From Chrysophaeum taylorii (lineage: Eukaryota > Sar > Pelagophyceae > Pelagomonadales > Pelagomonadaceae): 64,000 nt of DNA. Position 1 is the stretch's first letter; every line of letters begins with the position of its first letter. Below the pieces are notes generated by a model, which was not told the DNA's origin, made no database searches, and saw only the letters and a list, made by a program, of their open reading frames with translations. Below are positions 5,113 through 38,650 of the stretch, piece after piece. Made by a program: the position numbers and the translations under genes. The stretch covers positions 72,001-136,000 of the forward strand of contig JAQMWT010000084.1 of NCBI GenBank assembly GCA_029834535.1. The letters are read 5' to 3'.

Positions 5113-5475
5113 CCCTTACCCTGATCGCCGACTGCGGTTGCGATGGAGGACGGTGCCTCATGAATCCTGAGCCTTGCGAGGGCATCCGCCCTCCCGGCGT
5201 AGGTTGGCACCTATTCGCCTCCCGGGCGGGCCGGTTGGCAGCCGGAACGTTCGCAGTGGGACGGGGTATGGCCGGGGGGCGAAGACGGAAGGTTATCGGC
5301 GAGTTGGTTGTCAGTCACATCGCGGTCTCCTCGTCGCATTGCGACAAGCTTGATGGTCACTCTCCGCCGACCGACCTTTCGGCGCTCCTCGTCTACAGGC
5401 CCGTGATTCCGGACTGGCTCCTGTCGGTCCGGCCTGGCTCCCATGCTCGGGAGAGGTCTGAAGTTAGTTAGTTAG
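5113..5475 (+). mobile_element. SINE-like retroelement, copy 1, with target-site duplication
   Basis: A roughly 360-bp element that recurs at 27275-27627 with only about ten differences I can count. It ends in a short (GTTA)n tail and is bracketed by the 10-bp direct repeat TTATTTATAA at 5103-5112 and 5476-5485. A simple-repeat tail plus target-site duplication is typical of non-autonomous non-LTR retroelements. I could not identify convincing Pol III A and B boxes, so its RNA ancestor is unknown. The 103-codon ORF inside is not treated as a gene. The right duplication directly abuts the stop codon of the actin-related gene at 5486. Confidence 0.7.
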
Positions 5476-26546: not shown

Positions 26547-26555
26547 GCAGAATTA

Positions 26556-27803
26556 GAGAGATTTGACCCTCTCCGGGTGTACGGTAGAGACCACGTGCGG
26601 TCTTAGGTGCGACTAGACCATTCCGCATGTCATGTGGTACTACACAAGGCAGGAATTAGCTCCTCACTTCCCCAAGGACATTAAGTCCCGGAGAAGTTTT
26701 CACACTGACAACGAGGCACTGAGCTACTGCTAATTAAGCAACAGACTCGGGACCCTACGGCACGCAAAGGGTTGATATCTCCTGTCAGGAAGAAAACACT
26801 AGATGAGCTCTCATATCTAATTAGCTTGAAAGCGGAAGGGGAAGGGGTAAGGATGAGGGAAAGCCGTACTAACTCGGAGAGAAAACGCTCGTGGGAGATG
26901 GAGGTATGAGAGAAGGTGCGAAGAGCTCCTGAGCGTCGTACATGTTATGAGTCAACTCTCCATAGAGTTGACTCTATGGAGGTGCGAAGAGCTCCTGAGC
27001 GTCGTACATGTTATGAGTCAACTCTCCATAGAGTTGACTCTATGGAGTTGACTCATAACACTGACTCTATGGAGAGTTGACTCATAACATGTACGACGCT
27101 CAGAAGCTCATCGCGCCTTCTCTCATACCTCCATCTCTCATGAGCGTTTTCTCTCGGAGTTAATACGGCTTCATGAGAATTATCTACGGCTTTTCTTCTG
27201 ACAAGGAAAAATCCTCCAGGTGTGTGCCGTCAGGTACAGAGTCTTTTGCTTTATTAGCAAAAGAAGCTCTGTCCGATCGCCGACCGCATGGTTGCGATGG
27301 AGGACGGTGCCTCATGAATCCTGAGCCTTGCGAGGGCATCCGCCCTCCCGGCGTAGGTTGGCACCTATTCGCCTCTCGGGCGGGCCGGTTGGCAGCCGGA
27401 ACGTTCGCAGTGGGACGGGGTATGGCCGGGGGGCCCAGACGGAAGGTTATCGACGAGTTGGTTGTCAGTCACATCGCGGTCTCCTCGTCGCATGGCGACA
27501 AGCTTGATGATCACTCTCCGCCGACCCACCTTTCGGCGCCCCTCGTCTACAGGCCCGTGATTCCGGACTGGCTCCTGTCGGTCCGGCCTGGCTCCCATGC
27601 TCGGGAGAGGTCTGAAGTTAGTTAGTTAGAAGCTCTGTCCCTCGTTGTCAGTGTGAAAGCTTCCATGGGATCTAATATCCCTGAGAAGTTAGGAGCCTAA
27701 ATCCCTGCCTTGTGTTGTAGCATGTGACAAGCGGAATGGTATGTACACGCCTAAGACCGCACGCGGTCTCTACCATGTACCCGGAGAGGGTCAAATCTCT
27801 CCA
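26556..27803. repeat. Tail-to-tail LTR-like inverted repeats forming a large palindrome
   Basis: The left arm (26556 to about 27046) and the right arm (about 27050-27803, less the inserted SINE) are diverged inverted copies. Both contain GAGATTTGACCCTCTCCGGG near the outer end and CACTGACAACGAGG in the middle. The centre is a perfect 34-bp inverted repeat at 27000-27033 and 27065-27098. The left arm also has an exact 66-bp tandem duplication (26915-26980 and 26981-27046). The arms follow the internal regions of two opposing retrotransposon copies, so I read them as 3' LTR or 3' terminal sequences. True LTR ends (TG...CA) were not resolved. Confidence 0.65.
27275..27627 (+). mobile_element. 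SINE-like retroelement, copy 2
   Basis: Near-identical to the copy at 5113-5475 and in the same orientation. It is flanked by the 13-bp direct repeat AGAAGCTCTGTCC at 27262-27274 and 27628-27640, whose first two bases overlap the element tail. It begins at GATCGCCGAC, so it may lack about ten 5' bases compared with copy 1. It lies inside the right arm of the LTR-like palindrome and so inserted after the retrotransposon. Confidence 0.75.
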
Positions 27804-27993
27804 AAACTCTCTGGTCCCCCTCAAGCGTGTGGGAAATGTTTTGAACATCCCTGACGTTCTAGAGAGTGCACAGATTGTAAACCAGACGTGAAACGTCGAA
27901 CAATTAAACAAAACAAAACAAAACAAAACAACCTAACCTTACCTAACCTAACGTAACGTACCGTAACATAACATAAGAGAAGAGTATTAGCGC

Positions 27994-28716
27994 TCATGGT
28001 GAAGTGGAAGGCGCGCGCGTCGTTATATTGCGCAGAGCTGTTTGATCCAACATTGAAGATGAATTATAGTCCAATTCGTCTTCATTTTCTTCTTCTTTTA
28101 GTTTGTCGTCTGCCACATCAGCAGTTTCGTCTGGCCGCGAGTTAGTTGCAGCTTGAGAAGACTCATCATCAGTTCTGTCATCATCCGCAGTGCCATTATG
28201 AAAGGCAAAAAGGGTGCTAAGCGGGGGAAGAACAGAAACTACGTAAGAGAGCGCAGCAGCTGCGGATAGTTGACGAAGTTCGGTGACGGGGGCTATGACT
28301 CCATTAGTATTTGTTAACGCATCTTGGAGACTTCGAGTGGCGTTTTCAAGCTTAATTTGTTGATCCGGATCGTCTTCTGCAAACTGCTCCATGGACCCCA
28401 GTATTAAACGGGAGGTTAGCTGTGTAAGTTCACAGAACGCAGGCAGAGAGGTATCTTGGCGGGTTTGGTGATCTGACACTCGATCGTCTAAAAGTGCGAT
28501 GTTCTTTGTGTTCTGCACAATTTGCTTATCCCGTAGTTCGAGCTTAGAAGTGAGCTGGGCAATTGATTCGTGTGCAGCAGTTAGATGGCCTTGGAGGACA
28601 CAAACTTGATTAGAAAGTTCAGCAGCCTTTGCTTCGAGAGCTTGCAACTTAGGCGAGTTGTCAGAAGCTTCGTCAGCAAAGGAGACACTAGGCGTTTTCG
28701 CAGGTGTTATCAACAC
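27994..28716 (-). CDS. Retrotransposon extra ORF, coiled-coil part
   Basis: A 240-codon ORF downstream of RNase H in the retrotransposon. Residues about 20-75 are a coiled coil (LQALEAKAAELSNQVCVLQG, AQLTSKLELRDKQIVQNTKN), and the tail is acidic (KEEENEDELDY). It begins 15 bp after the previous ORF stops, in another frame, so the two may once have been a single protein. I recognise no family. The position after pol matches where some LTR elements place additional or envelope-like ORFs, but no transmembrane segment is present, so an envelope is unlikely. Confidence 0.45.
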   Translation of the reverse strand: MLITPAKTPSVSFADEASDNSPKLQALEAKAAELSNQVCVLQGHLTAAHESIAQLTSKLELRDKQIVQNTKNIALLDDRVSDHQTRQDTSLPAFCELTQLTSRLILGSMEQFAEDDPDQQIKLENATRSLQDALTNTNGVIAPVTELRQLSAAAALSYVVSVLPPLSTLFAFHNGTADDDRTDDESSQAATNSRPDETADVADDKLKEEENEDELDYNSSSMLDQTALRNITTRAPSTSP

Positions 28717-28730
28717 CTGTGTGTCTTGCT

Positions 28731-29489
28731 TTAGATTTGAAATTTTTTTGGGGTGGTTTGTGGGTACTGTGATTTTTTAAGAATGCTTATTAATTGACCC
28801 TGATTCTCCGGTTGTAGGTCGGAGAAGTAGTTTAAAAATGTGGGTAGAGCGGAGGAGCCTGGTGTCGTACTCAGCTCTCGTTGACGTATAGCACAGGATA
28901 CAAACAGGTCGAGTAAGAGATCAAATAACTCTTTAGGATTATCAATGATCGCACACTTGGTTTCTACAGAGTGCAGGAGAGCCGAACATACAATTAGATG
29001 TTCAAGGCTCGTCACTGAGAACTGCGAGAGTTGGAGAAAAGTGGATCCTGTTTTGTCGTCTGGATTAGCGAGGAAACCAGTGCTATTAATGTTTCTTTCA
29101 TTTAGCTGAGTTAATAGGGCATCTTTAAGTTGCTTGTTTATGGGGATGTCCTTATTGAAACGCAGTATAGCTTCACGGACATGTTCTGGCTTGTCCTCTG
29201 TACAAGCCAGCTTGTGACTATCGAGACAAGACTGTAGTCTTGGCGTGCCATGTGTTGATAACATACAAATAGCACAGATAGTCAAGTAAACTTGACGGGG
29301 AACATAAAAACGATGACATTTATGGTCATCGGATTGCAAATGAGATTGAACCAGCTTCAGAGTTTCATCAGACTTTAACTCGTCTTCGGTACCAGAAGTA
29401 ATGACAAGCGGCGTGCCAGGGGCAGATGTCTTCATCAAGCCTTTCGTGCACAAAGTAAAGAGCCCACAATTAGTGCTCATAGAAAGCAA
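28731..29489 (-). CDS. Retrotransposon extra ORF, helical part
   Basis: A 252-codon ORF between RNase H and the coiled-coil ORF. It is mostly predicted helix with Leu/Ser-rich segments such as TSLEHLIVCSALLHSVETKC and RQVYLTICAICMLSTHG; no catalytic motif is visible. It could be a capsid-like or structural protein displaced to the 3' side, or a protein unique to this family. The unassigned stretch between it and RNase H (29490-30120) has stops in all frames I inspected except a 29766-30425 minus frame that overlaps RNase H in another phase, so more of this coding region may have decayed. Confidence 0.4.
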   Translation of the reverse strand: MLSMSTNCGLFTLCTKGLMKTSAPGTPLVITSGTEDELKSDETLKLVQSHLQSDDHKCHRFYVPRQVYLTICAICMLSTHGTPRLQSCLDSHKLACTEDKPEHVREAILRFNKDIPINKQLKDALLTQLNERNINSTGFLANPDDKTGSTFLQLSQFSVTSLEHLIVCSALLHSVETKCAIIDNPKELFDLLLDLFVSCAIRQRELSTTPGSSALPTFLNYFSDLQPENQGQLISILKKSQYPQTTPKKFQI

Positions 29490-30120
29490 ACGATTTACGC
29501 GAATGCCCTCATTCGGGGCTATGTCATGAAATGGTTTGATTCGCTTAAAACCAAGACAGAGAAGAGATGAAAGAAAAATTGTAACTTAGATACATCATTG
29601 GTTTCATACGCAGCTTGCATGACAGTCTAAACAGATTTAGAAGTCCAATCATTCGTAGCCGGCAAGGGTAGTAGGTGGTTTAGACTAGAAAGACCATCGA
29701 AGAAGGGATTGCCATCAAGCATGCCGACCAAGTCGAAATTTGTGTGCTCTTGTAAAAAATAAGCACTAGTAACCTGAGGACCTTAGGTGACAGTTTTTAG
29801 CACCGTCGCAGGTGAAGTAGGTGCAGACTTTGCTGCGGCCAGATATGATGCATTTCATAAAGTGGCGGCCGCGATAGATGTACGGTCGCGCATTGTAACA
29901 GTAGGCGACCTGGGCAATAAAGATATACCACGTCCGCTGCGAAGATGTGAATGCCGCCGATTGGCAGCAGCCGTGTTCTCTGAAGAGTTCAATTCCAATA
30001 CATGAAAAATAGCAAATACAAGGAAGAACTATCAAGTTCAGCGAAGGATGAATCTTGCATAAATCCGTCGCTGCGAGGGCTAGTTTAATGTCGTTGCGGA
30101 CATAAAGATGAGGGTAAGGT
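29490..30120. other. Non-coding or decayed stretch inside the retrotransposon
   Basis: Between RNase H and the extra ORFs of the minus-strand element. Composition matches the element. No recognisable domain; a minus-strand frame at 29766-30425 is open but unlike any family I know. Confidence 0.45.
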
Positions 30121-30711
30121 TTAATCGTCTTGCTGGACGATGGTTTGTTGTAAACCAAGCAGAGTACGAAATGTTGAAAAGAGGGGAGCACCAAAGGTTC
30201 TCGTAAGGCCGTCGGCAGCATTATGTGAGCCAAAAATATGGTGCAACCGGATTCGTTTAAGCTGAACATAATCGCGTATTCGGAACCAGCGCGTGCTGAT
30301 CGCATTAGCTTTGGTAGCACTGTCTGGATTATTTGACAAATGAATAGCGGAAGCAGAATCCCCAAGGATAGGGCTGTTGCGGATGAACGACATATCCGAC
30401 GGTAGTGGACTGTCGTGGCCATCATAATCCAGCAGCAGATCTTTTCCTGAAGGTTGGCGGAGATAGTATCGAGGATTTATCGCGAGGGCCATCTCCATCA
30501 TAAGTTTACGCAACCAAACCACATCATCAGCGCAAGTATTAAGAGCAATAAGCTCACTTTCATGGGTGGAAGTAGCTGTTATAGGTTGGAGCTTGGACTT
30601 CCACGTAACAAGAGAACCAAATAAGTAAACTGCATATCCAGTTGTACTCTTGCGGTCACGTTCATATGATGGCGCGTTATCAGCATCTACAAAATGCAAC
30701 AAGAGGATCAA
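30121..30711 (-). pseudogene. Copia-type RNase H domain of the retrotransposon
   Basis: A 196-codon ORF giving the C-terminal RNase H of a Copia polyprotein, which degrades RNA in RNA-DNA hybrids during reverse transcription. Typical motifs are FVDADNAPSYERDRKSTTGY (first Asp), WKSKLQPITATSTHESELIA (Glu in the S-x-E-x-E position), GDSASAIHLSNNP (third acidic residue) and a final HHIFGSHNAADGLTRTFG, the counterpart of the usual ADxLTK. It is separated from the reverse transcriptase ORF by about 90 bp containing stops, so the polyprotein is broken here. Confidence 0.8.
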
Positions 30712-30798
30712 AATTACCAGAATCCACCTGCTCTGCGGTGTCGTCTAACATGGTTGCCATGTCAGAGCGATTGCCAATGACAGAGCGCAAGTGGTCCA

Positions 30799-33201
30799 TT
30801 AAAGCGGAAGACTTTGAATGATACCATAGGCGGAGGTTCGGTTCTCAGGTTTGCGAAGATATCGAAAGGTACCAACCAATAGCTGGACGTGCAAAGAGGA
30901 TGGAGTGTGCATCCCTCGAGAGCATCGGCTGAGACTTCGAGAGAGATCTGGCCGGCAAGATAACTGAACCAATGTCAATTCACCAAGGAGGGTCGAAAAA
31001 GTAGTAAGAATGTACTTGTCCGTCTCAGATGACTGCTCTCCAGTTTTATAAGTAGCAGAGGGCGACATCGGAGTCAAAGAAGGTTCCAATTTTAGTAACA
31101 TAGAGTGCTCCTCGAAGATTGCGTCGATTTTAGCCTGACAATCCTGTGAGATGGACCCATTATAAGTTCTCGTAACTCGCATACCCAAGAGAGTGTGTAC
31201 TTCCTCAAAAGCTTCAACAGAATATTGCTTCTTCGTAGCCTGTTGAAATTCAAGGCGAAGTATCTCTGAGGTGCAAATGACGACAACGTCGTCCACAGAT
31301 AAAGTGCACAACAAAAAGTTAGCATCATCTTGGACCTTAGCGTATATGTAAGTGTCTGTACGAAAGCGATGATATCCAAGAGAATCGAAGAACCCATTGA
31401 TCGTTTGGTTCCAGAATACCGGACTCTGCCGTGGTCCGTAAAAGGACTTTAGCAATTTGGGGAGTCGACGCCCATTGTATTCGGCGTCTTCAGGATCCAA
31501 TAAATAGATGCCTTGCGGGAGCTTGACATATACATGAGAATCGATAGGAGCTTGGACGAGCGCAGTGGGCACGTCTATATGATAGACGGGAAGCCGAAGG
31601 TGCGCAGCTAGTGCCAGGACACAATGAATACCTGTAAGCTGCGCCATTGGGCTGAACGTGTTGAAGAAGTCGGTGCCGAGGGAAGCTAGAAACCCCCTGA
31701 GCACCAACCTAGCCTTGTGCTTGGTATATTCACCGGCCGCATTGGTCTTGATACGCAGCACGAGCCTGGTGTCGATGGGCTTGGAGTTAGCCATCGGCAG
31801 CGACAATTTAAAGCAGCCGAACTTGACTATGTCGAAGATCTCCTTGGAAATCGCGGAGATGTAGGCCTTGCGATCAGCGTCTGAGAGACCTTTTAGGCAG
31901 GTCAGCTCATACTCATCAATCTTGATATCTTTGGCTTCCATCTTGTACTCATCAGGGCCGACGGTGCTAGGATCTTGATCTTGAGTCAAATAGGTGATGG
32001 CATAAGAATCGGCATCAGAATGAGCGGGAGCATGTTCGGGAGTTTCGACTAGTTGAACAACGAGTAGAGGATCAGCTTGTAGGTAAGACTCAATATAGTG
32101 AGCCTGCACAGTGATGTAGTCCTCGATGTCAGAGAGGCGTGGGTCGGAATCACCATAGGTGGAATTATTATGTGCCATAATAGCGTCAGGCGTCAACAGA
32201 GCGTTTGCGTATTGTGCGGTAGGCACTTGAAATGCTTGCGCATGCTCTGCAATTAGATGGACGAGAGTACGAGGTGAATGGAAATCCGAGAGGTTGGTTG
32301 TGTCGAGAAAACGAACTGGAGGGGCAGACCATGGACGTATATGTCTTCTCTGGTTCTCATCAGAAGAAGCACGTAAGCAAGATGGTTGCGAAAGAAGGTG
32401 GTGAGCGTGGTGATGAAGGGCTGGGGTAAAATCCCCCTCTGGAGCCATAGTCGTCCAGTGGATGCCATTAGAAGCATGAAGGGTGTGGAGGGTGGGGTCC
32501 AAGAAGGTGATGTAGCGCTTCGACAGATCATATTTAAAATCGGCCAAAGTGCCACCTGCCTGCTTGTAATCGACTTTAGTGGGCGAGGCAAGGCGAGCTT
32601 GGACAGCTTGTAAATTGGCTTTACGTCGAGGTTGAGGTTGATTAGGACCTTGGGTAAGACGTAGAGCATCTTGTGAGAAAAGTTCACGAAATGTGGGCAG
32701 AATGGGCAAGGCATTTTGCGGGAGGTCAGGTGTGGTCGGTGTTTCGACTGGGGCAGCAGAAGCGGGAACCATAGCAAAAGAAGCTGGAGCTGGTGAAGGA
32801 GTGGAAGTAGTCCCCCTCTCGTGTTCAGTGTCGGTTGACACAGCAATCCCCCTCTGCGACGCATCACTCGGGGGGCTTTGAACAGAAAAGGGTACCTCAG
32901 GAGAAGGTGCAGGTGGTGGGGATTGTTCATAATCGGGAGGAGACTTAGAGGTTAGATAAGGAAAAGTAAGTTTGGAAGAGACACGGACTTGACCGTTCTC
33001 TGGATTAAGAACAACATCAGCTAGATGATTAACATGCGGTGTAACTAGCGGGTTAATGGCATTAGCGCCACACAAGTAGATGTAAGGGCGACATCGACGT
33101 TCATACTTACGAAACTCTGTAGGTTCCAAGTGCAAATAACAAACAGAGCCAAACTGTTTTAGGTAGTCTTGTTGAGGAACGTTACATTGGTCGAGCAACA
33201 T
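30799..33201 (-). pseudogene. Copia-type integrase tail and reverse transcriptase ORF
   Basis: An 800-codon ORF. The first ~90 residues are the Copia post-integrase segment (QFGSVCYLHLEPTEFRKYER). After a low-complexity linker comes reverse transcriptase: TKHKARLVLRGFLASLGTDF, the catalytic Asp in YHIDVPTALVQAPIDSHVYV, KLPQGIYLLDPED and the double Asp in LSVDDVVVICTS, where most Copia elements have YVDD. It ends with the RPDLSRSLSRCSRGMHTPS region that normally leads into RNase H. It copies element RNA into cDNA. The ORF is open over its full length, but adjacent ORFs are in other frames, so this copy is probably not functional alone. Confidence 0.85.
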
Positions 33202-33328
33202 TTGTTAGGGACTAACTAGTTAGGGACTTCACACTTTATTATAAATGCTTTCGAGAGAGACATTAGGAAGGAGATTATAGGACTGAACAGCATGAATTAC
33301 AGCCCTCAGAAATGTGGAGCAGGGTCTG

Positions 33329-33727
33329 TTATAGGGCGGCCCTTGTATGGCACTTCAGTAGGCTCCTAAGTCTAGTGGACGCAGCAGTTGCTATATGACC
33401 AACAGCGGCTTCTACCTCATGATTAATGACATGTAAGTACGGCGGGAAAGCAGACATACTAATGTCATGTTCAACACGATAGGGAGTTGTAACGTAATGG
33501 GACAAAAAGGGTTTAAAAGAGTCACAGTAGATTTGTTTCAATTGCACATGGACATAAGTAGAACAGGAATTGCGAACAAACTCGAGTGCTTTGCAGAGTT
33601 CGCTAGCATTCGTAGTGCGACAGAAATACACTAACAAAATTGTGAAATAAGACACTTGAAGACCAATATGTGGCGGAATTGACCCCACTCGGAGAGTACG
33701 GAAATGTATCCACCGTCGCATGCCCAT
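33329..33727 (-). pseudogene. Integrase catalytic core, C-terminal part, frameshifted
   Basis: Continues the integrase whose first Asp lies in the upstream ORF. In this frame the sequence reads SYFTILLVYFCRTTNASELC, then the second Asp in LKQIYCDSFKPF, and the last catalytic residue in VINHEVEAAVGHIATAA (E of the D,D-E triad; usually NGxVER). The frame change from the methyltransferase-integrase ORF lies near 33650. A stop and about 130 bp separate it from the next ORF. It is a decayed part of the retrotransposon polyprotein. Confidence 0.7.
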
Positions 33728-36042
33728 GCTTCGCCAGGTTGGAAAGTCTTTTCGAAGGACGGCAGTTTCTTTAAATTATGTGGATGCGGGAGTTTCTTCT
33801 TGTGGAGAGTGCAGTCAACACAAAATTTCCGATAGGGAACGTCAGAGGGGTGATGACCAGGATTCGAGATGACCTGAACAGCCTTTATGGCTTGAGAGTC
33901 ACTCGAATGATGAGTGTCATGAAAAATTGTAGCGCGTCGCTGTGCATCGCGAAAGGCGAGTGTACCACGAGAATGTACTTTCCTGTCATAAAAAGCATAT
34001 TTTTTGTGTTGTTGTCTTGGTGTTATTAATGGGATAGGTTTTTCTCTGGGTTTAGAGGTGGAAGTTGATGTATCATTTAAAGACGAGATGTTAGACACAA
34101 ATACGCGTGCAACACAATCGACATCAAACGAAGGTAGATCGGGTTTAGTGGACAGGTTATCACAACACATGAAAGTTTTAGATGTTAAATGTTGCATTAT
34201 AAGGAAACTCTGAGAATGTAATTGTGAATGATCTGTAGGAAAGACGTTGGTGAAGAAAGTGGACCTGAATATTTTGGTTAGTTTGGCATGATCGGGATCG
34301 AAAGATGGAGATAAGGTTAATTTACGCAGATTATAGACGATCTGGCACAAACGTGTGAACAACACATGATAGGTGCCAGCTGGAATAGCATTTGCAATCA
34401 TGTCACAACACAAATCAGGAGGTATAGACAAAAGAAAATTAGTTTGGTGCGCTGTGAAATTATTGGCGCGCGCCAATTCTCGTGGCGAATAGTGTCGAAG
34501 TCGACCGACTCTTGGGTCGTAGACTAACATGTTTGCATATCCACGGATAGTGGGAGTGGGAGTGTAGCTTGTATGTACTTCAGCTCCGATTATTCTATCA
34601 CTAGAAGCGATGAAGCCCAGATACCTGCTTTGAGACAAATGCATGTCATTTAGAGCAAAAGACCTGTCGACAAACTCGAGATGGTTAGTTTTCGAGTAGA
34701 AAATTAGTGAATCCTGAAGCACATGAGAACTGTGCGAAACAAGAGTATGCATTAAGCAACGTGTGTCCCGCAGTTCACTGATGTGTTGATATGCTTGACA
34801 AAGCCATAAAAAAACAGTTGCAGATTCTAAAATAGCCATTTTGTCGACTCCACTCTCATGCGATTGCAGGGTATAAGTCTCACCAAAACGGTTGATATGA
34901 GCCTCATACTTGGAAGAAGCTTTGGTGACAGTGATGTCACCACCTGTGTGTCTTCCACCTGTGATGTAGATGATGGGAGTGGTTAATGATTTATTTAAGA
35001 ATAACCTACGTGTGGGTTCGTTAGTTTCGAATGTAGTTATACGAGAAGACACAGGTAAAGTGATTGATTGTGGGAACAAGCGCCCCATAATATTATATAG
35101 GATGACAAATGCTTTGAATTCAATACGCGATGTCATACAACGCAAGGGTTGCTTTGAATTCGTCAGGAATCCTAGGCGAGAGTTTGATCTATTCTTAGTG
35201 CCATCCTGAGAAGGAAGTGCAGACGTTTTCTGTGAGTGCAGACGTAGAAAAAGCATTGCTAGAGTCTCCAGCTCTGCTACAGTCAAGCGAACAGATCCAG
35301 TGCGATTAAAGGTACCAAAAGTCTTTGGATTTGACACGAAAGAAACATCTGGAAAAACTTGCGTCCATGGTTTGTCGACATACAGTTTTCGACTTATGGC
35401 ATTGCTATTATCAGCAATGTCAAGAAAGGAAGTGGCCCGTTTATTGGGCCAGGAGAGCAAGTCCAGAGGACCAGAATTGTATTTGCGGGCAACAAGGATC
35501 CATCGTCCCCTGGATTGATAATCGCCACACAAATAACAAGGAAAACGATCGCAGATGTCCACTGTATAGTGCATGGAAGAAAAGAGCAAGCTAGCAACTC
35601 TGATATGGTCTTCATAAGATGCACGATGCGGCGGGGTCATCTCCATAAGGAGGACAAGAGGCTTTGTAAGTTCAAGCACACTTAAAGCACTTGGAAACAA
35701 AGAATCGTCCATATCTCGTTCAAAAGTCGAGATGGCTCTCCCGTTGTTTACATTTCTATTTGTGCACGGAGAAGTAAGTTCCACGATATCGGAATAGTAT
35801 TTAGCACGTTCATTCTCCGAAGCACGATGCAGATACGTTAGGAACTTGGGGAGAGATGGAAAAATTTCTATGGAGTTGCCAAACCTAGTTCGTGGCATGT
35901 GCGTAAGAGTTTCATCGCTCTCAACAAGAACTTTGACGTTGATGTTGATTCCCAAGTCATGAGTAGCACTAGCTAGAAATTCTGGAATGGACAAGCCAGA
36001 GCAAAGAAGAGTAACTGTGGGAGTGCGAGAGTTAGATACCAA
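33631..36042 (-). CDS. Cytosine-C5 DNA methyltransferase fused to retrotransposon integrase N-terminus
   Basis: An 803-codon ORF of the retrotransposon. Residues about 8-565 carry C5-methyltransferase motifs in canonical order. Motif I is TVTLLCSGLSIPEF, motif II VLVESD and motif IV DIVELTSPCTNR with the catalytic Pro-Cys at residues 92-93. Motif VI is VLLMEMTPP (Glu134, where ENV is usual), motif VIII is YQSRGRWILVA (exact QxRxR) and motif IX is RHYSPRELARANNF. Motif X is MIANAIPAGTYHVLFTRL. About 330 residues between VIII and IX would be the target-recognition region. From about residue 700 follows the integrase zinc-binding HH...CC (HDTHH...FCVDCTLHKKK) and the first catalytic Asp in EAWACDGG. 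It is predicted to methylate cytosine in DNA; target sequence unknown. Confidence 0.8.
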   Translation of the reverse strand: MVSNSRTPTVTLLCSGLSIPEFLASATHDLGININVKVLVESDETLTHMPRTRFGNSIEIFPSLPKFLTYLHRASENERAKYYSDIVELTSPCTNRNVNNGRAISTFERDMDDSLFPSALSVLELTKPLVLLMEMTPPHRASYEDHIRVASLLFSSMHYTVDICDRFPCYLCGDYQSRGRWILVARKYNSGPLDLLSWPNKRATSFLDIADNSNAISRKLYVDKPWTQVFPDVSFVSNPKTFGTFNRTGSVRLTVAELETLAMLFLRLHSQKTSALPSQDGTKNRSNSRLGFLTNSKQPLRCMTSRIEFKAFVILYNIMGRLFPQSITLPVSSRITTFETNEPTRRLFLNKSLTTPIIYITGGRHTGGDITVTKASSKYEAHINRFGETYTLQSHESGVDKMAILESATVFLWLCQAYQHISELRDTRCLMHTLVSHSSHVLQDSLIFYSKTNHLEFVDRSFALNDMHLSQSRYLGFIASSDRIIGAEVHTSYTPTPTIRGYANMLVYDPRVGRLRHYSPRELARANNFTAHQTNFLLSIPPDLCCDMIANAIPAGTYHVLFTRLCQIVYNLRKLTLSPSFDPDHAKLTKIFRSTFFTNVFPTDHSQLHSQSFLIMQHLTSKTFMCCDNLSTKPDLPSFDVDCVARVFVSNISSLNDTSTSTSKPREKPIPLITPRQQHKKYAFYDRKVHSRGTLAFRDAQRRATIFHDTHHSSDSQAIKAVQVISNPGHHPSDVPYRKFCVDCTLHKKKLPHPHNLKKLPSFEKTFQPGEAWACDGGYISVLSEWGQFRHILVFKCLISQFC

Positions 36043-36078
36043 AGTTCCCGTATGTAGCAGATGGGGATTAAGTCTGCG

Positions 36079-36513
36079 TCATATGGGCGGTGATAGTTGT
36101 TTGCGTATGTATACAAGCTGAGAGTACATAGACTCCAAGATAGTCTTGTACCAGGGAACGTAGATTACACGTTCAAGCAGCTTCGTATAGAGACCCTGCA
36201 TTTCCCGTTGTTCACTGAAGGAACACAGCTTAAACTGTAGCGAGCGAAGTTCCATCTTGCGCGCCTTAGCCTGCTGTAGCGAGTAGATGGGCAGAGTGGG
36301 AAGCAAGTTGTCAAGTCTGAACAGAGGGATTTGCACATTATCATCAATCTTACAGGTGATGTTTGACTGACCCTTAAATTCAGTGCCAAAAGATATGCAT
36401 GCCAAGTTTGTCTTCACCCCATTGAGGGATACTGATGATATGGAGATCTGGGTCGTTGTTCTGATTTTGCTTAGGAAGGAACAGAGCGACATCCAATTTG
36501 ACGTAACCAACAT
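36079..36513 (-). pseudogene. Polyprotein linker between protease and methyltransferase
   Basis: A 144-codon ORF in a different frame from the protease ORF, which it overlaps. Its last ~100 residues (KGQSNITCKIDDNVQIPLFR, LPIYSLQQAKARKMELRSLQ, RVIYVPWYKTILESMYSQLV) look like the protein region that once joined the protease to the methyltransferase. Two frame breaks therefore flank it. No independent domain recognised. Confidence 0.4.
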
Positions 36514-37582
36514 CAGGATGATTAGGGAGAGCTGGTATCACCGTGCGAAGGATCATCGCGTGAGTGATTCTTTGTTTATTGGTTGCTGTCTGAATAGCCG
36601 GAGACAGTGAATCGGGCAACTTATCGATGTGCAAGGGATCAGCATAACGTCGAAAATTTATGGCATGGTGCGAAGCACAGGTATCAGCATAACCAGACGT
36701 AGTCATCTTTGGAAGATTATACACATTGTACAATTTTAGCATAGTAGCATAACACGCATGTGTAGAGCTTTGATCAAAAACATGCTGAGTTAAGAAAATC
36801 TGCGTTTGATCAGAAGGCGTGACTAAGAAAGTTAAACCGGTGTTAAGAGGTAACTTAGGAAGTATCCTAGGCGGTGCTGTATTGTCATCTTCCTCTCCGT
36901 CATGCTGGGTCTTACCCTGTTGCTCATCAGATTTGGGTGGGGCTTCCAGAGCATTACGGCGGACAACAGCACTTTGAGCTTTTGCACTAATATGCTGCAG
37001 TAGCGGTTGCGGAATGTTATCGATAGCTGAATCTTTGACTGTTAGGAAGGTTTGAAACAACTGTTCCATATCAGTGGTCCCCCTCGCCCCCCTCTGCTCC
37101 GCATCACTGGGTGACACTGTAGGAGCAGAAGTATTTACACCATCCTTTTCTTCAGGGACATGAGAAGATGGATCGGAATCGAGGAGACCAGCGATAGCTT
37201 TAGACATGGAACCGACACGAGACATACAAAGTTGCACTTGAGTGGCTTCATCTGGATCAAGGGTTTGTGTGGAGGCATAAGAAGCAGTAGTCCACAATGT
37301 GTTTAACAGCGTCTTCATCTCTTCTTGAACATTCTTAACTTCAGTGGATGGATTAGGATTAGCGTCCTGGAGTTTGCGAAAAAGATGGCGAAGTCGTTCC
37401 GTTTGATAGCCAGCCCTTTCCATTAAAGACATATTTGAGCGTGAGCTGCGATTAGTTGTCTGCGGATAGATAGGGCGGTCGTAACTGTTGCCTTTGAGGT
37501 TATAATTAGATGGAGGACGATTATAGGAGGTATCTCTAGGCGAGATTGATGCAGACTTGTCCTTAGCGCAGTTTACGCGCAT
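36380..37582 (-). pseudogene. Gag C-terminal region and aspartic protease of the retrotransposon
   Basis: A 400-codon ORF. The first ~250 residues are hydrophilic, Gln/Asp/Pro-rich gag-like sequence. A Copia-type aspartic protease follows: TTSGYADTCASHHAINFRRY aligns with the family's DSGASxH active site, with Cys in place of the conserved Gly after the catalytic Asp-Thr. Further on, GYVKLDVALFLPKQNQNN aligns with the usual VLYVPxLxxNLxSV region. The enzyme would cut the polyprotein, but the Gly-to-Cys change probably inactivates it in this copy. The frame ends before the linker ORF. Confidence 0.6.
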
Positions 37583-37959
37583 TGAAGCCTGATTTACCAG
37601 TGGCTATAGCCAAGAGAGCGTAAGTGCTGTCAAGAGTATCATGAGATTCTTGGATGGTGTCCATTAGTAACACTTTCGGGGTTTTAGAAGACGTTGTTCC
37701 TGGTATGTAAGGACCCAAGAAGAGGGTTTATCCAGTCGACGACTTGTGGTGTACTTGGTTTCATTATAAACCCGCAGAAGCTACTCAAGCAACGGACGGA
37801 CGGTCGGATCCACCAATTTTAAAATAGAGTGATCCAGGGTGGTGTTGTTGCGGGAGCGAGTCTCATAGACTTTACACCACTTCAGGAGCGATTGAGAGTA
37901 CCTCGCGTGATCAGACGGGCTGGCGTAAGTCTTGTAGAGCTCCTCGTGCGCTTTAAGCG

Positions 37960-38650
37960 CTATGATGGAGTTACTAAACTGGATTTAACCTCTTCTGTAA
38001 TCAGCTGATTTGCCTGAGTCTGAAAAGCAAGCAGTTGTTCAACAAACACATGAGCGTACCAATCAACATTAAGGGTCATCCTGTTGAATTGCATTTTGAG
38101 CTCGGAAACGTCTGTCGACGATACCGTCTCGTAAAAGTAATAGGCCAAGAGCATTATGGCTCGCGTTTTATTGGGATGGGCATTCTTAGCATACAGTACC
38201 TTCATTTCTGCCCAAAATGGCTAGAGCTGGCTTGTCAATGGACTCGGTATTGAAGAACGTGTAGAGGAAGCTTGCGTACGTCTCGGAATATTCAAGCCAA
38301 TCGGCTTTAGAAAAACCTGTGTAAGTTATGGTGATTAGAGACTGATTATACACAATTGACTTCGGAAACTGCATGTTTAATTGACTGATAACGCGTTCGA
38401 CTTCAGCGTAAATTTCCGGGCGTACAAGATTATAGTTAGATCAAGATTATACGCGCCCCGAAAGAATAAGCGCGTTAGGTTATTGCGCTCATCATCTGAT
38501 AGCATATGTGAATTATTTATATGCCACACTTGGAGATGCTCAGGAAGAGCGGATACATCAGGCAGGTTAAGAGCCTGTATTTGTACAGACAGTGCTTTTA
38601 GGAATATGAGTGGAAAGAATGTTCTGAGGTTTTTAGTGGCTAGTGCTCCT
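37960..38650 (-). pseudogene. Gag-like N-terminal region in three frames, 5'-truncated
   Basis: Three overlapping frames together read as one protein. Frame one runs from 38650 (NLPDVSALPEHLQVWHINNS, RNNLTRLFFRGAYNLDLTII). Frame two is 38374-38186 (SFLYTFFNTESIDKPALA). Frame three is 38205-37960 (FYETVSSTDVSELKMQFN). It matches the plus-strand ORF at 25995-26546. The coding sequence is already open at 38650, where retrotransposon-like composition ends, so the start of gag and the 5' LTR are missing. Between 37583 and 37959 nothing readable was found. Confidence 0.6.

Follow-up and report, generated by a model that had tools for sequence, protein, structure and literature searches.

A cytosine-C5 methyltransferase-like domain between protease and integrase of Copia retrotransposons in the pelagophyte Chrysophaeum taylorii

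The window analysed here is a 64,000-nucleotide stretch of the genome of Chrysophaeum taylorii, a pelagophyte and stramenopile (positions 72,001-136,000 of contig JAQMWT010000084.1, C84, in an assembly of 70.8 Mb and 697 contigs). It carries a decayed copy of a Ty1/Copia retrotransposon in which a domain resembling cytosine-C5 methyltransferases (C5-MTases) lies between protease and integrase. With a probability of about 0.6, the pol of an ancestral element gained a C5-MTase before three families, A, B and C, diverged, and the enzyme is packaged and acts on the element's own nucleic acid. At least 281 genomic places encode such an MTase domain, all in these three Copia families. A preliminary description, made from the letters of the window, had identified a Copia element with a C5-MTase at this position, as does the present analysis from the reverse transcriptase match (RVT_2) and the order protease, integrase, reverse transcriptase (RT), RNase H.

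The methyltransferase-like frame of the window

Analysis of the open reading frames (ORFs) of the window revealed an uninterrupted minus-strand frame of 815 amino acids (aa), from 36078 to 33634. The following features, all on the minus strand, were located in and next to this frame by inspection of motifs, and the names of the MTase motifs are those that we take to apply.

33631-36078, minus strand: open frame with the C5-MTase-like domain (34348-36078), the integrase zinc motif and the first catalytic Asp
36079-36081, minus strand: in-frame UGA between protease and MTase, conserved across copies
35995-36012, minus strand: motif I, TLLCSG
35914-35928, minus strand: LVESD
35752-35775, minus strand: motif IV, TSPCTNRN, with Pro-Cys at residues 104-105 of the full frame
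35626-35652, minus strand: motif VI, LLMEMTPPH
35500-35526, minus strand: motif VIII, GDYQSRGRW
34531-34563, minus strand: pre-IX stretch, TPTPTIRGYAN
34456-34497, minus strand: motif IX, RHYSPRELARANNF
34366-34398, minus strand: motif X, IANAIPAGTYH
33898-33924, minus strand: HH of the integrase
33802-33825, minus strand: CC of the integrase
33706-33726, minus strand: first Asp of the integrase (WACDGGY)

As previously described, motifs I, IV, VI, VIII, IX and X follow one another in order and precede the integrase HHCC motif and first Asp in a single open frame, and the Pro-Cys pair occupies residues 92-93 when numbering starts at 36042. The protease lies upstream of this frame, and RVT_2 (E 4.9e-36) and RNase H lie downstream. 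The claim that the MTase is part of the polyprotein holds for other copies, where a single frame runs from the MTase through the integrase into at least the beginning of RT, whereas the window copy is discontinuous. Likewise, the claim of a "full" MTase stands with regard to the order of the motifs but not to motif VI, which is altered to E-M-T from E-N-V in families A and C. In addition, a large insert separates motifs VIII and IX in the A/C-type domain.

Families and spread in the genome

The family counts are lower bounds, since they cover the best-scoring candidates only. Family A, to which the window copy belongs, comprises at least 76 loci (79 entries, from which three second fragments were removed), and at least 75 other places match all or part of a 577-aa stretch of the window at 65% identity or more. 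For family C, the sister of A, at least 150 entries were obtained, and one copy was inspected in detail. PF00145 (DNA_methylase) matched at least 57 places. Two of these are the host genes L001 and L002; of the other 55, nine were inspected (L003-L008 and L042-L044), all of type B. The multi-copy presence across the genome rules out a stray insertion into one copy. Bacterial contamination was also rejected, since the domain sits in long terminal repeat (LTR) elements on many contigs.

The search for family members lacking the domain, which the preliminary description had proposed, was performed on the best 150 RVT_2 places. A listed A or C MTase was present 3.0-6.3 kb upstream on the same strand for 60 of them and on the opposite strand for one; no listed B MTase place was found upstream of any of the 150. 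Two of the remaining 90 places were inspected (on contigs C483 and C365), and both are family A copies with the MTase. No Copia element without the MTase was seen among these 60 places and the two inspected, and within this scope the outcome favours the preliminary description. An identical score of 148.1 bits is found for about 39 RVT_2 places whose model range is 8-220; this is a sign of recent amplification, and several of these places adjoin family C MTase places.

No relatives were found in viral_contigs (with MTase queries of B, A and A/C, and RT queries of B and C) or in genome_contigs (with the RT of C); as viral contigs and prokaryote genomes make up these collections, the result has little bearing on other algae.

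Relationship of the domain to C5-methyltransferases

Family B very likely belongs to the C5-MTase superfamily, judging from sequence. The B copy L044 matches PF00145 with 34.7 bits (E 1.7e-8), over the cut-off of 22, and family B has the canonical PCQ and ENV motifs (LPCQHLS and VENVP). Its sole NCBIfam match is TIGR00675 (dcm; 34 bits, E 2.4e-8), below the model cut-off of 100.65, and in the PDB, with E values of up to 10 admitted, the B profile matched a single protein, a cytosine-specific methyltransferase (E 0.59).

For family C (copy L045), PF00145 is the sole Pfam match (E 0.043 against 24736 models; 13.7 bits, under the 22-bit cut-off), with residues 43-198 aligned co-linearly to profile positions 22-165. 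A profile built from B, L002 and 120 DNA methyltransferase (DNMT) proteins, with neither A nor C inside, gave 13.6 bits for C, a score reached by 0 of 300 shuffles. Over motifs I-VIII, A and C are 58% identical and A and B 19%; the identity between the window and C is 57%.

For family A, four of five A sequences, together with the C-terminal piece of C, outranked all 700 shuffles against a B-only profile, and global alignments of A with B exceeded the mean score of shuffles by 3.6-10.5 standard deviations. PF00145 matched one of nine A sequences including the window (L038; E 0.22, the best A score at 11.3 bits, short of the cut-off of 22). All 12 aligned A and B sequences have the motif IV Cys and the motif VI Glu, as does C, and 11 of the 12 have the motif IV Pro, the exception being L038, which has Arg (S-R-C). 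A and C have in common Pro-Cys, the Glu of motif VI and N-A-x-P; Cys, Glu and N-A-x-P are shared between A and B. These results suggest that C, and via C also A, likely belong to the C5-MTase superfamily. The window domain is identified as an MTase because its relatives in families C and B, in the same slot of related elements, match.

Several observations weigh against this identification. In the profile search that the preliminary description had called for, the window protein matched no Pfam family at E ≤ 10, and the support came through families C and B. A protein search with the window frame gave no relative at E ≤ 0.001 among the best 8000 candidates, and BLASTP of the window domain against B was not significant (E 0.12). 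With the profile of B, L002 and DNMT proteins, 11-27 of 300 shuffles scored as high as the A sequences; of five control pieces of the elements, four were no better than shuffles, and the piece from the insert region behaved about as the A sequences did (31 of 300). The window sequence was not among the matches listed for the B-only profile, and the N-terminal piece of C was outranked there by two shuffles. In two of eight A-B global comparisons, at least one of 300 shuffles scored higher. The hhalign probabilities were 1.4% for A against B (P 0.036) and 10.7% for A/C against DNMT2 (P 0.0029). Searches of the PDB with an A+B profile, an A/C profile or a piece of B returned no DNMT among their matches, and AlphaFold2 run on the single window sequence gave a predicted local distance difference test score of 33. 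Finally, motif VI reads E-M-T in A and C, where the canonical ENV retained by B is absent, and B has no motif VIII Gln. The weak profile-profile scores, which include B against DNMT2 (18.6%, P 0.0013), are partly due to shallow alignments. The protein search with family B likewise gave no relative at E ≤ 0.001.

A chance resemblance, in which the A/C domain is unrelated to methyltransferases, would fit the lack of a significant match for the A sequences alone. It is nevertheless highly improbable, as B, whose domain occupies the same slot in related elements, scores over a curated cut-off, PF00145 is the only and co-linear Pfam match of C, and the six motifs are in order. As for the observation of the window frame itself, at least 75 other matching places and purifying selection (see below) place it beyond chance.

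Because of the E-M-T in motif VI, A and C are divergent C5-MTase members at best. The A/C domain might be a relative of C5-MTases that no longer methylates DNA and either binds S-adenosylmethionine, RNA or DNA or has a structural role, for instance in the folding of Pol, the packaging of the genome or the targeting of integrase. E-M-T replaces E-N-V in nine of nine A sequences of one alignment, as well as in C, and further copies read E-M-R (L021) and K-M-T (the A copy L052, in which the Glu is missing). The near erasure of profile similarity to DNMTs and the large insert point in the same direction. Conversely, the residues common to A and C and to A and B, and pN/pS values of 0.09-0.10 for the MTase segments, the lowest of five segments between A copies, argue against this reading, and we consider a non-methylating module unlikely.

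The domain could also be an RNA methyltransferase acting on genomic RNA, the tRNA primer or RNA:DNA hybrids. The top PDB match of C is DNMT2 (E 0.11), tied with an unrelated dioxygenase, and with a DNMT2-only profile no decoy scored as high as C or two of the three B sequences, although these stayed below 10 bits. The SymbioLINE DNMT of Symbiodinium, moreover, was inactive on DNA in yeast and discussed as a possible RNA enzyme, according to excerpts of de Mendoza et al. (2018, PMC5890265). On the other hand, the A sequences resemble shuffles under the DNMT2 profile, DNMT2 was nearly the sole DNMT family in the comparison set, and none of these results separates DNA from RNA enzymes: dcm, the best NCBIfam match of B, is also that of the DNMT2-like L001. 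We think an RNA enzyme quite unlikely.

Purifying selection on the domain

Selection was analysed in family A alone, with 21 of 29 other copies, those with long open frames. Medians of the ratio of nonsynonymous to synonymous differences per site (pN/pS) were used in preference to dN/dS means, which held infinite values from saturation, and pairs with less than 80% coverage or at most 60% identity were removed. Between A copies, the median pN/pS was 0.10 for the catalytic half, 0.09 for the insert and 0.10 for the IX-X part (210 pairs each). The linker, at 0.36 (120 of 210 pairs), and the first part of the integrase, at 0.24 (91 of 210), had higher values. The three MTase segments thus have the lowest values among the five segments compared, a set that does not include RT. 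Between the window and the A copies, the corresponding values were 0.13, 0.22 and 0.19 (21 pairs each), 0.31 for the linker (4 of 21 pairs) and 0.12 for the integrase (14 of 21); synonymous sites approach saturation in these comparisons. These results indicate that the MTase domain is under purifying selection in family A.

One gain or two

Between A and C, the identity of the MTase (0.58) is close to that of the integrase (0.56), and the same holds between A and B (0.19-0.27 and 0.24, respectively), whereas RT diverges less between families than either. Such a similar divergence of MTase and integrase is expected if the MTase travelled with pol. Two separate captures, one by the A/C ancestor and one by B, would account for the 19% identity of A and B over motifs I-VIII, the lack of significance in their profile comparison and the differing details of their motifs. 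However, the slot between protease and integrase is shared, the alignment is co-linear over the whole domain with global scores well above the shuffle mean, and the integrase decays similarly between the same families. Two captures therefore appear unlikely, and a single gain before the divergence of A, B and C is preferred.

An in-frame UGA upstream of the methyltransferase

In families A and C, a UGA splits Gag-protease from MTase-integrase-RT. It is found at the same position in 27 of 29 inspected A copies; the two exceptions, L012 and L017, have a differing reading before the MTase, apparently through rearrangement or a shift, and a thirtieth copy, L011, was left out, as the UGA comparison did not match it. 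Genome-wide, the A pattern with exact flanks gave 170 sites when the codon was left open and 170 sites when it was TGA, namely UGA at 170 of 170 sites. In the control with the next codon left open, 7 of 177 sites differed (Fisher P 0.015). In C, UGA is present at 10 of 10 sites with exact flanks.

In A, no in-frame AUG directly follows the UGA, and readthrough is therefore the simplest route to Pol, whereas in C an AUG follows, so that re-initiation is possible. The invariance of the UGA would imply readthrough. RNA structure 3' of the UGA was no better than that of shuffles, which tells against this mechanism.

Anatomy of the elements and of the window copy

The family A element, as pieced together from several copies, consists of an LTR of about 400 bp, Gag-protease, UGA, MTase-integrase-RT-RNase H, ORF3 and LTR. 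Its LTR was deduced from two copies, the 5' end of one and the 3' end of the other matching at 86%. The LTRs were found with blastn, after being missed in exact-seed repeat searches. The anatomy of C resembles that of A, and no LTR was found for C within the stretch examined. ORF3 lies 3' of RNase H in A (up to 541 aa; L040 and L050) and in C (frames of 351 and 277 aa; L045 and L047), and matched no known family. In the A copy L012, LTR-derived sequence is apparently fused straight to the MTase frame.

The B copy on contig C96, the one for which both flanks were available, has 208-bp LTRs that are 89% identical (TAGAGA...TCTCTA), with a 5-bp target duplication (CTCAC), and its LTR lies directly 3' of RNase H. 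In this one copy, gag overlaps a 1952-aa protease-MTase-integrase-RT frame by 37 nucleotides in the -1 frame. Single frames that extend from the MTase over the integrase at least into RT reach 1464 aa (L040), 1868 aa (L043) and 1952 aa (L044), and on contig C42 the MTase and RVT_2 entries give an identical frame length of 1691 aa. RVT_2 matches L044 with E 1.6e-38 and L045 with E 2.5e-41. The order protease, integrase, RT, RNase H is present, rve being below its cut-off in L040, L044 and L045; protease and RNase H are presumed from their motifs.

The remaining parts of the window copy are as follows.

37604-38550, minus strand: Gag remnant, truncated at the 5' end; similarity to copy L039 starts at about 38550
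36082-37603, minus strand: C-terminal Gag and protease (YADTCASHH, 36665-36691), matching a 571-aa frame of L041
33329-33775, minus strand: integrase core with second Asp (33509-33529) and Glu (33404-33424), to which we ascribe catalytic roles; in a different frame in the window copy
30799-33204, minus strand: integrase end, linker and RT, RVT_2 E 4.9e-36; catalytic LSVDDV at 31276-31302
30121-30744, minus strand: presumed RNase H region, assigned by motifs; frame with DADNAPSYERDRKST, STHESELI and GDSASAIHL
27994-29585, minus strand: extra ORF3 region, 3' of RNase H; broken into the overlapping frames 28731-29585 and 27994-28776
26556-26909, minus strand: probable 3' LTR remnant, matching the LTR of family A at 73% identity across 366 bp

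The Gag/protease stretch is disrupted between 36537 and 36380, where the frame changes, and no 5' LTR was found for the window copy. The frame at 30121-30744 has no Pfam RNase H match. The ORF3 region resembles a 541-aa open frame at the same position in the copy on contig C428; against Pfam it gave nothing over the cut-off, and the weak matches of its second frame are coiled-coil families. An inverted A-type LTR fragment at 27637-27803 indicates that the 3' region is rearranged. The window copy is thus a broken relic, with Gag truncated, protease, integrase and RT-RNase H distributed over several frames and the 3' end rearranged.

3' of ORF3, window positions 26553-27804 contain a 66-bp tandem repeat along with LTR fragments in inverted orientation. 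A 355-bp repeat at 27275-27629, with a second copy at 5123-5475, has a (GTTA)n tail and a 12-13-bp flanking duplication. It also occurs in the loci of a B copy (L042) and an A copy (L029) and looks like a short interspersed element. Rfam gave no match in the window.

Host methyltransferases and CpG content

L001, the stand-alone methyltransferase on contig C634, is 100% identical to CTAYLR_008533 and is DNMT2-like by the names of its relatives, with dcm as its best NCBIfam match. L002, on contig C621, has a DNMT in a 2086-aa open frame (PF00145, E 7.9e-18); we take it to be DNMT5-like, and it is a probable host methylation enzyme. The observed/expected CpG ratio is 0.89-1.05 in the elements and 1.26-1.34 in host flanks. 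The lower values are compatible with some methylation; the lack of strong depletion counts against the preferred explanation, and CpG decay was rejected as proof of methylation.

Discussion

The above results are best explained if the pol of a Ty1/Copia ancestor acquired a C5-MTase between protease and integrase before A, B and C diverged, and the domain was then passed on with pol. In A and C, Gag-protease synthesis would stop at the conserved UGA, and readthrough would yield a smaller amount of MTase-integrase-RT-RNase H, whereas B would make protease-MTase-integrase-RT from one frame, with the gag frame overlapping in -1. The MTase would be packaged together with RT and integrase and, as the element replicates or integrates, would act on the nucleic acid of that element. 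Since a Pol-linked MTase would share the particle with RT and integrase, cDNA would be its natural substrate, an argument also made for SymbioDIRS in excerpts of PMC5890265. Most likely, the target would be cytosines in newly made cDNA, or else the chromatin where the element inserts, and a copy methylated in this way may be tolerated by a genome-methylating host. Readthrough, packaging, catalysis, substrate and benefit are all inferred here, as are the functions proposed in the preliminary description (self-methylation of cDNA, marking of insertions).

A bolder proposal is that nearly the whole Copia population depends on a Pol-linked C5-MTase controlled by UGA readthrough, with the A/C active site rebuilt (E-M-T) for an unusual substrate, for instance the RNA:DNA hybrid or single-stranded cDNA delivered by the linked RT; we regard this as distinctly improbable. 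The invariant UGA leads to a concrete hypothesis on the control of the MTase dose. As the genome is small (71 Mb), the alga is in culture and the copies number in the hundreds, methylomes, cDNA methylation and effects on transposition are measurable. The C. taylorii genome was reported as 71 Mbp in 702 contigs, and the main text of that paper, in the excerpts available, does not mention transposons, retroelements or repeats (PMC10366177).

Comparison with known retrotransposon-encoded methyltransferases

With these elements, stramenopiles and, it seems, the Copia superfamily join the retrotransposons with a captured C5-MTase. The preliminary description had expected a further capture, and the host, a pelagophyte, is indeed neither a dinoflagellate nor a charophyte. 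The added lineage and superfamily argue that such capture recurs for a reason. Excerpts of de Mendoza et al. (2018, PMC5890265), the one study centred on retrotransposon DNMTs among those that the literature searches listed, describe such enzymes in dinoflagellates (LINE and DIRS elements) and in a charophyte (Gypsy). One sentence of Sarre et al. (2025, PMC12344493) places DNMT3 members in "LTR Copia and DIRS families"; the groups meant are streptophytes together with dinoflagellates, and its source is the 2018 paper, which in the excerpts describes Gypsy. No stramenopile case or anatomy of a Copia element was seen in the excerpts of Sarre et al., and no such stramenopile element in those of PMC9998398, PMC3145265, PMC12477816 and PMC6338049.

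Like the C. taylorii domain, SymbioDIRS-Dnmt3 and SymbioLINE-Dnmt of Symbiodinium are C5-MTases in a retrotransposon coding region, with many intronless copies and purifying selection, and in SymbioDIRS the MTase lies within the Pol polyprotein (excerpts of PMC5890265). In contrast, these are tyrosine-recombinase DIRS and LINE elements of a dinoflagellate, whereas those of Chrysophaeum are Copia. Moreover, the Symbiodinium elements keep the key DNMT positions and their de novo CG methylation has been demonstrated (same excerpts), whereas the Chrysophaeum domain is known from sequence.

KnitGypsy-Dnmt3 of Klebsormidium nitens is similar in being an LTR retrotransposon with a DNMT in Pol and a Ka/Ks below 0.2, and differs in being Gypsy, in its streptophyte host and in having fewer copies than the Symbiodinium elements (excerpts of PMC5890265). 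The Chrysophaeum elements, compared with it, are Copia, occur in a stramenopile, form three families and carry the MTase between protease and integrase. Overall, the Chrysophaeum domain belongs to the coding sequence of an element present in many copies and is kept by purifying selection in family A, as in retrotransposon-encoded DNMTs, and within the open-access literature other than bioRxiv preprints it apparently represents a further lineage and the first Copia case described in detail.

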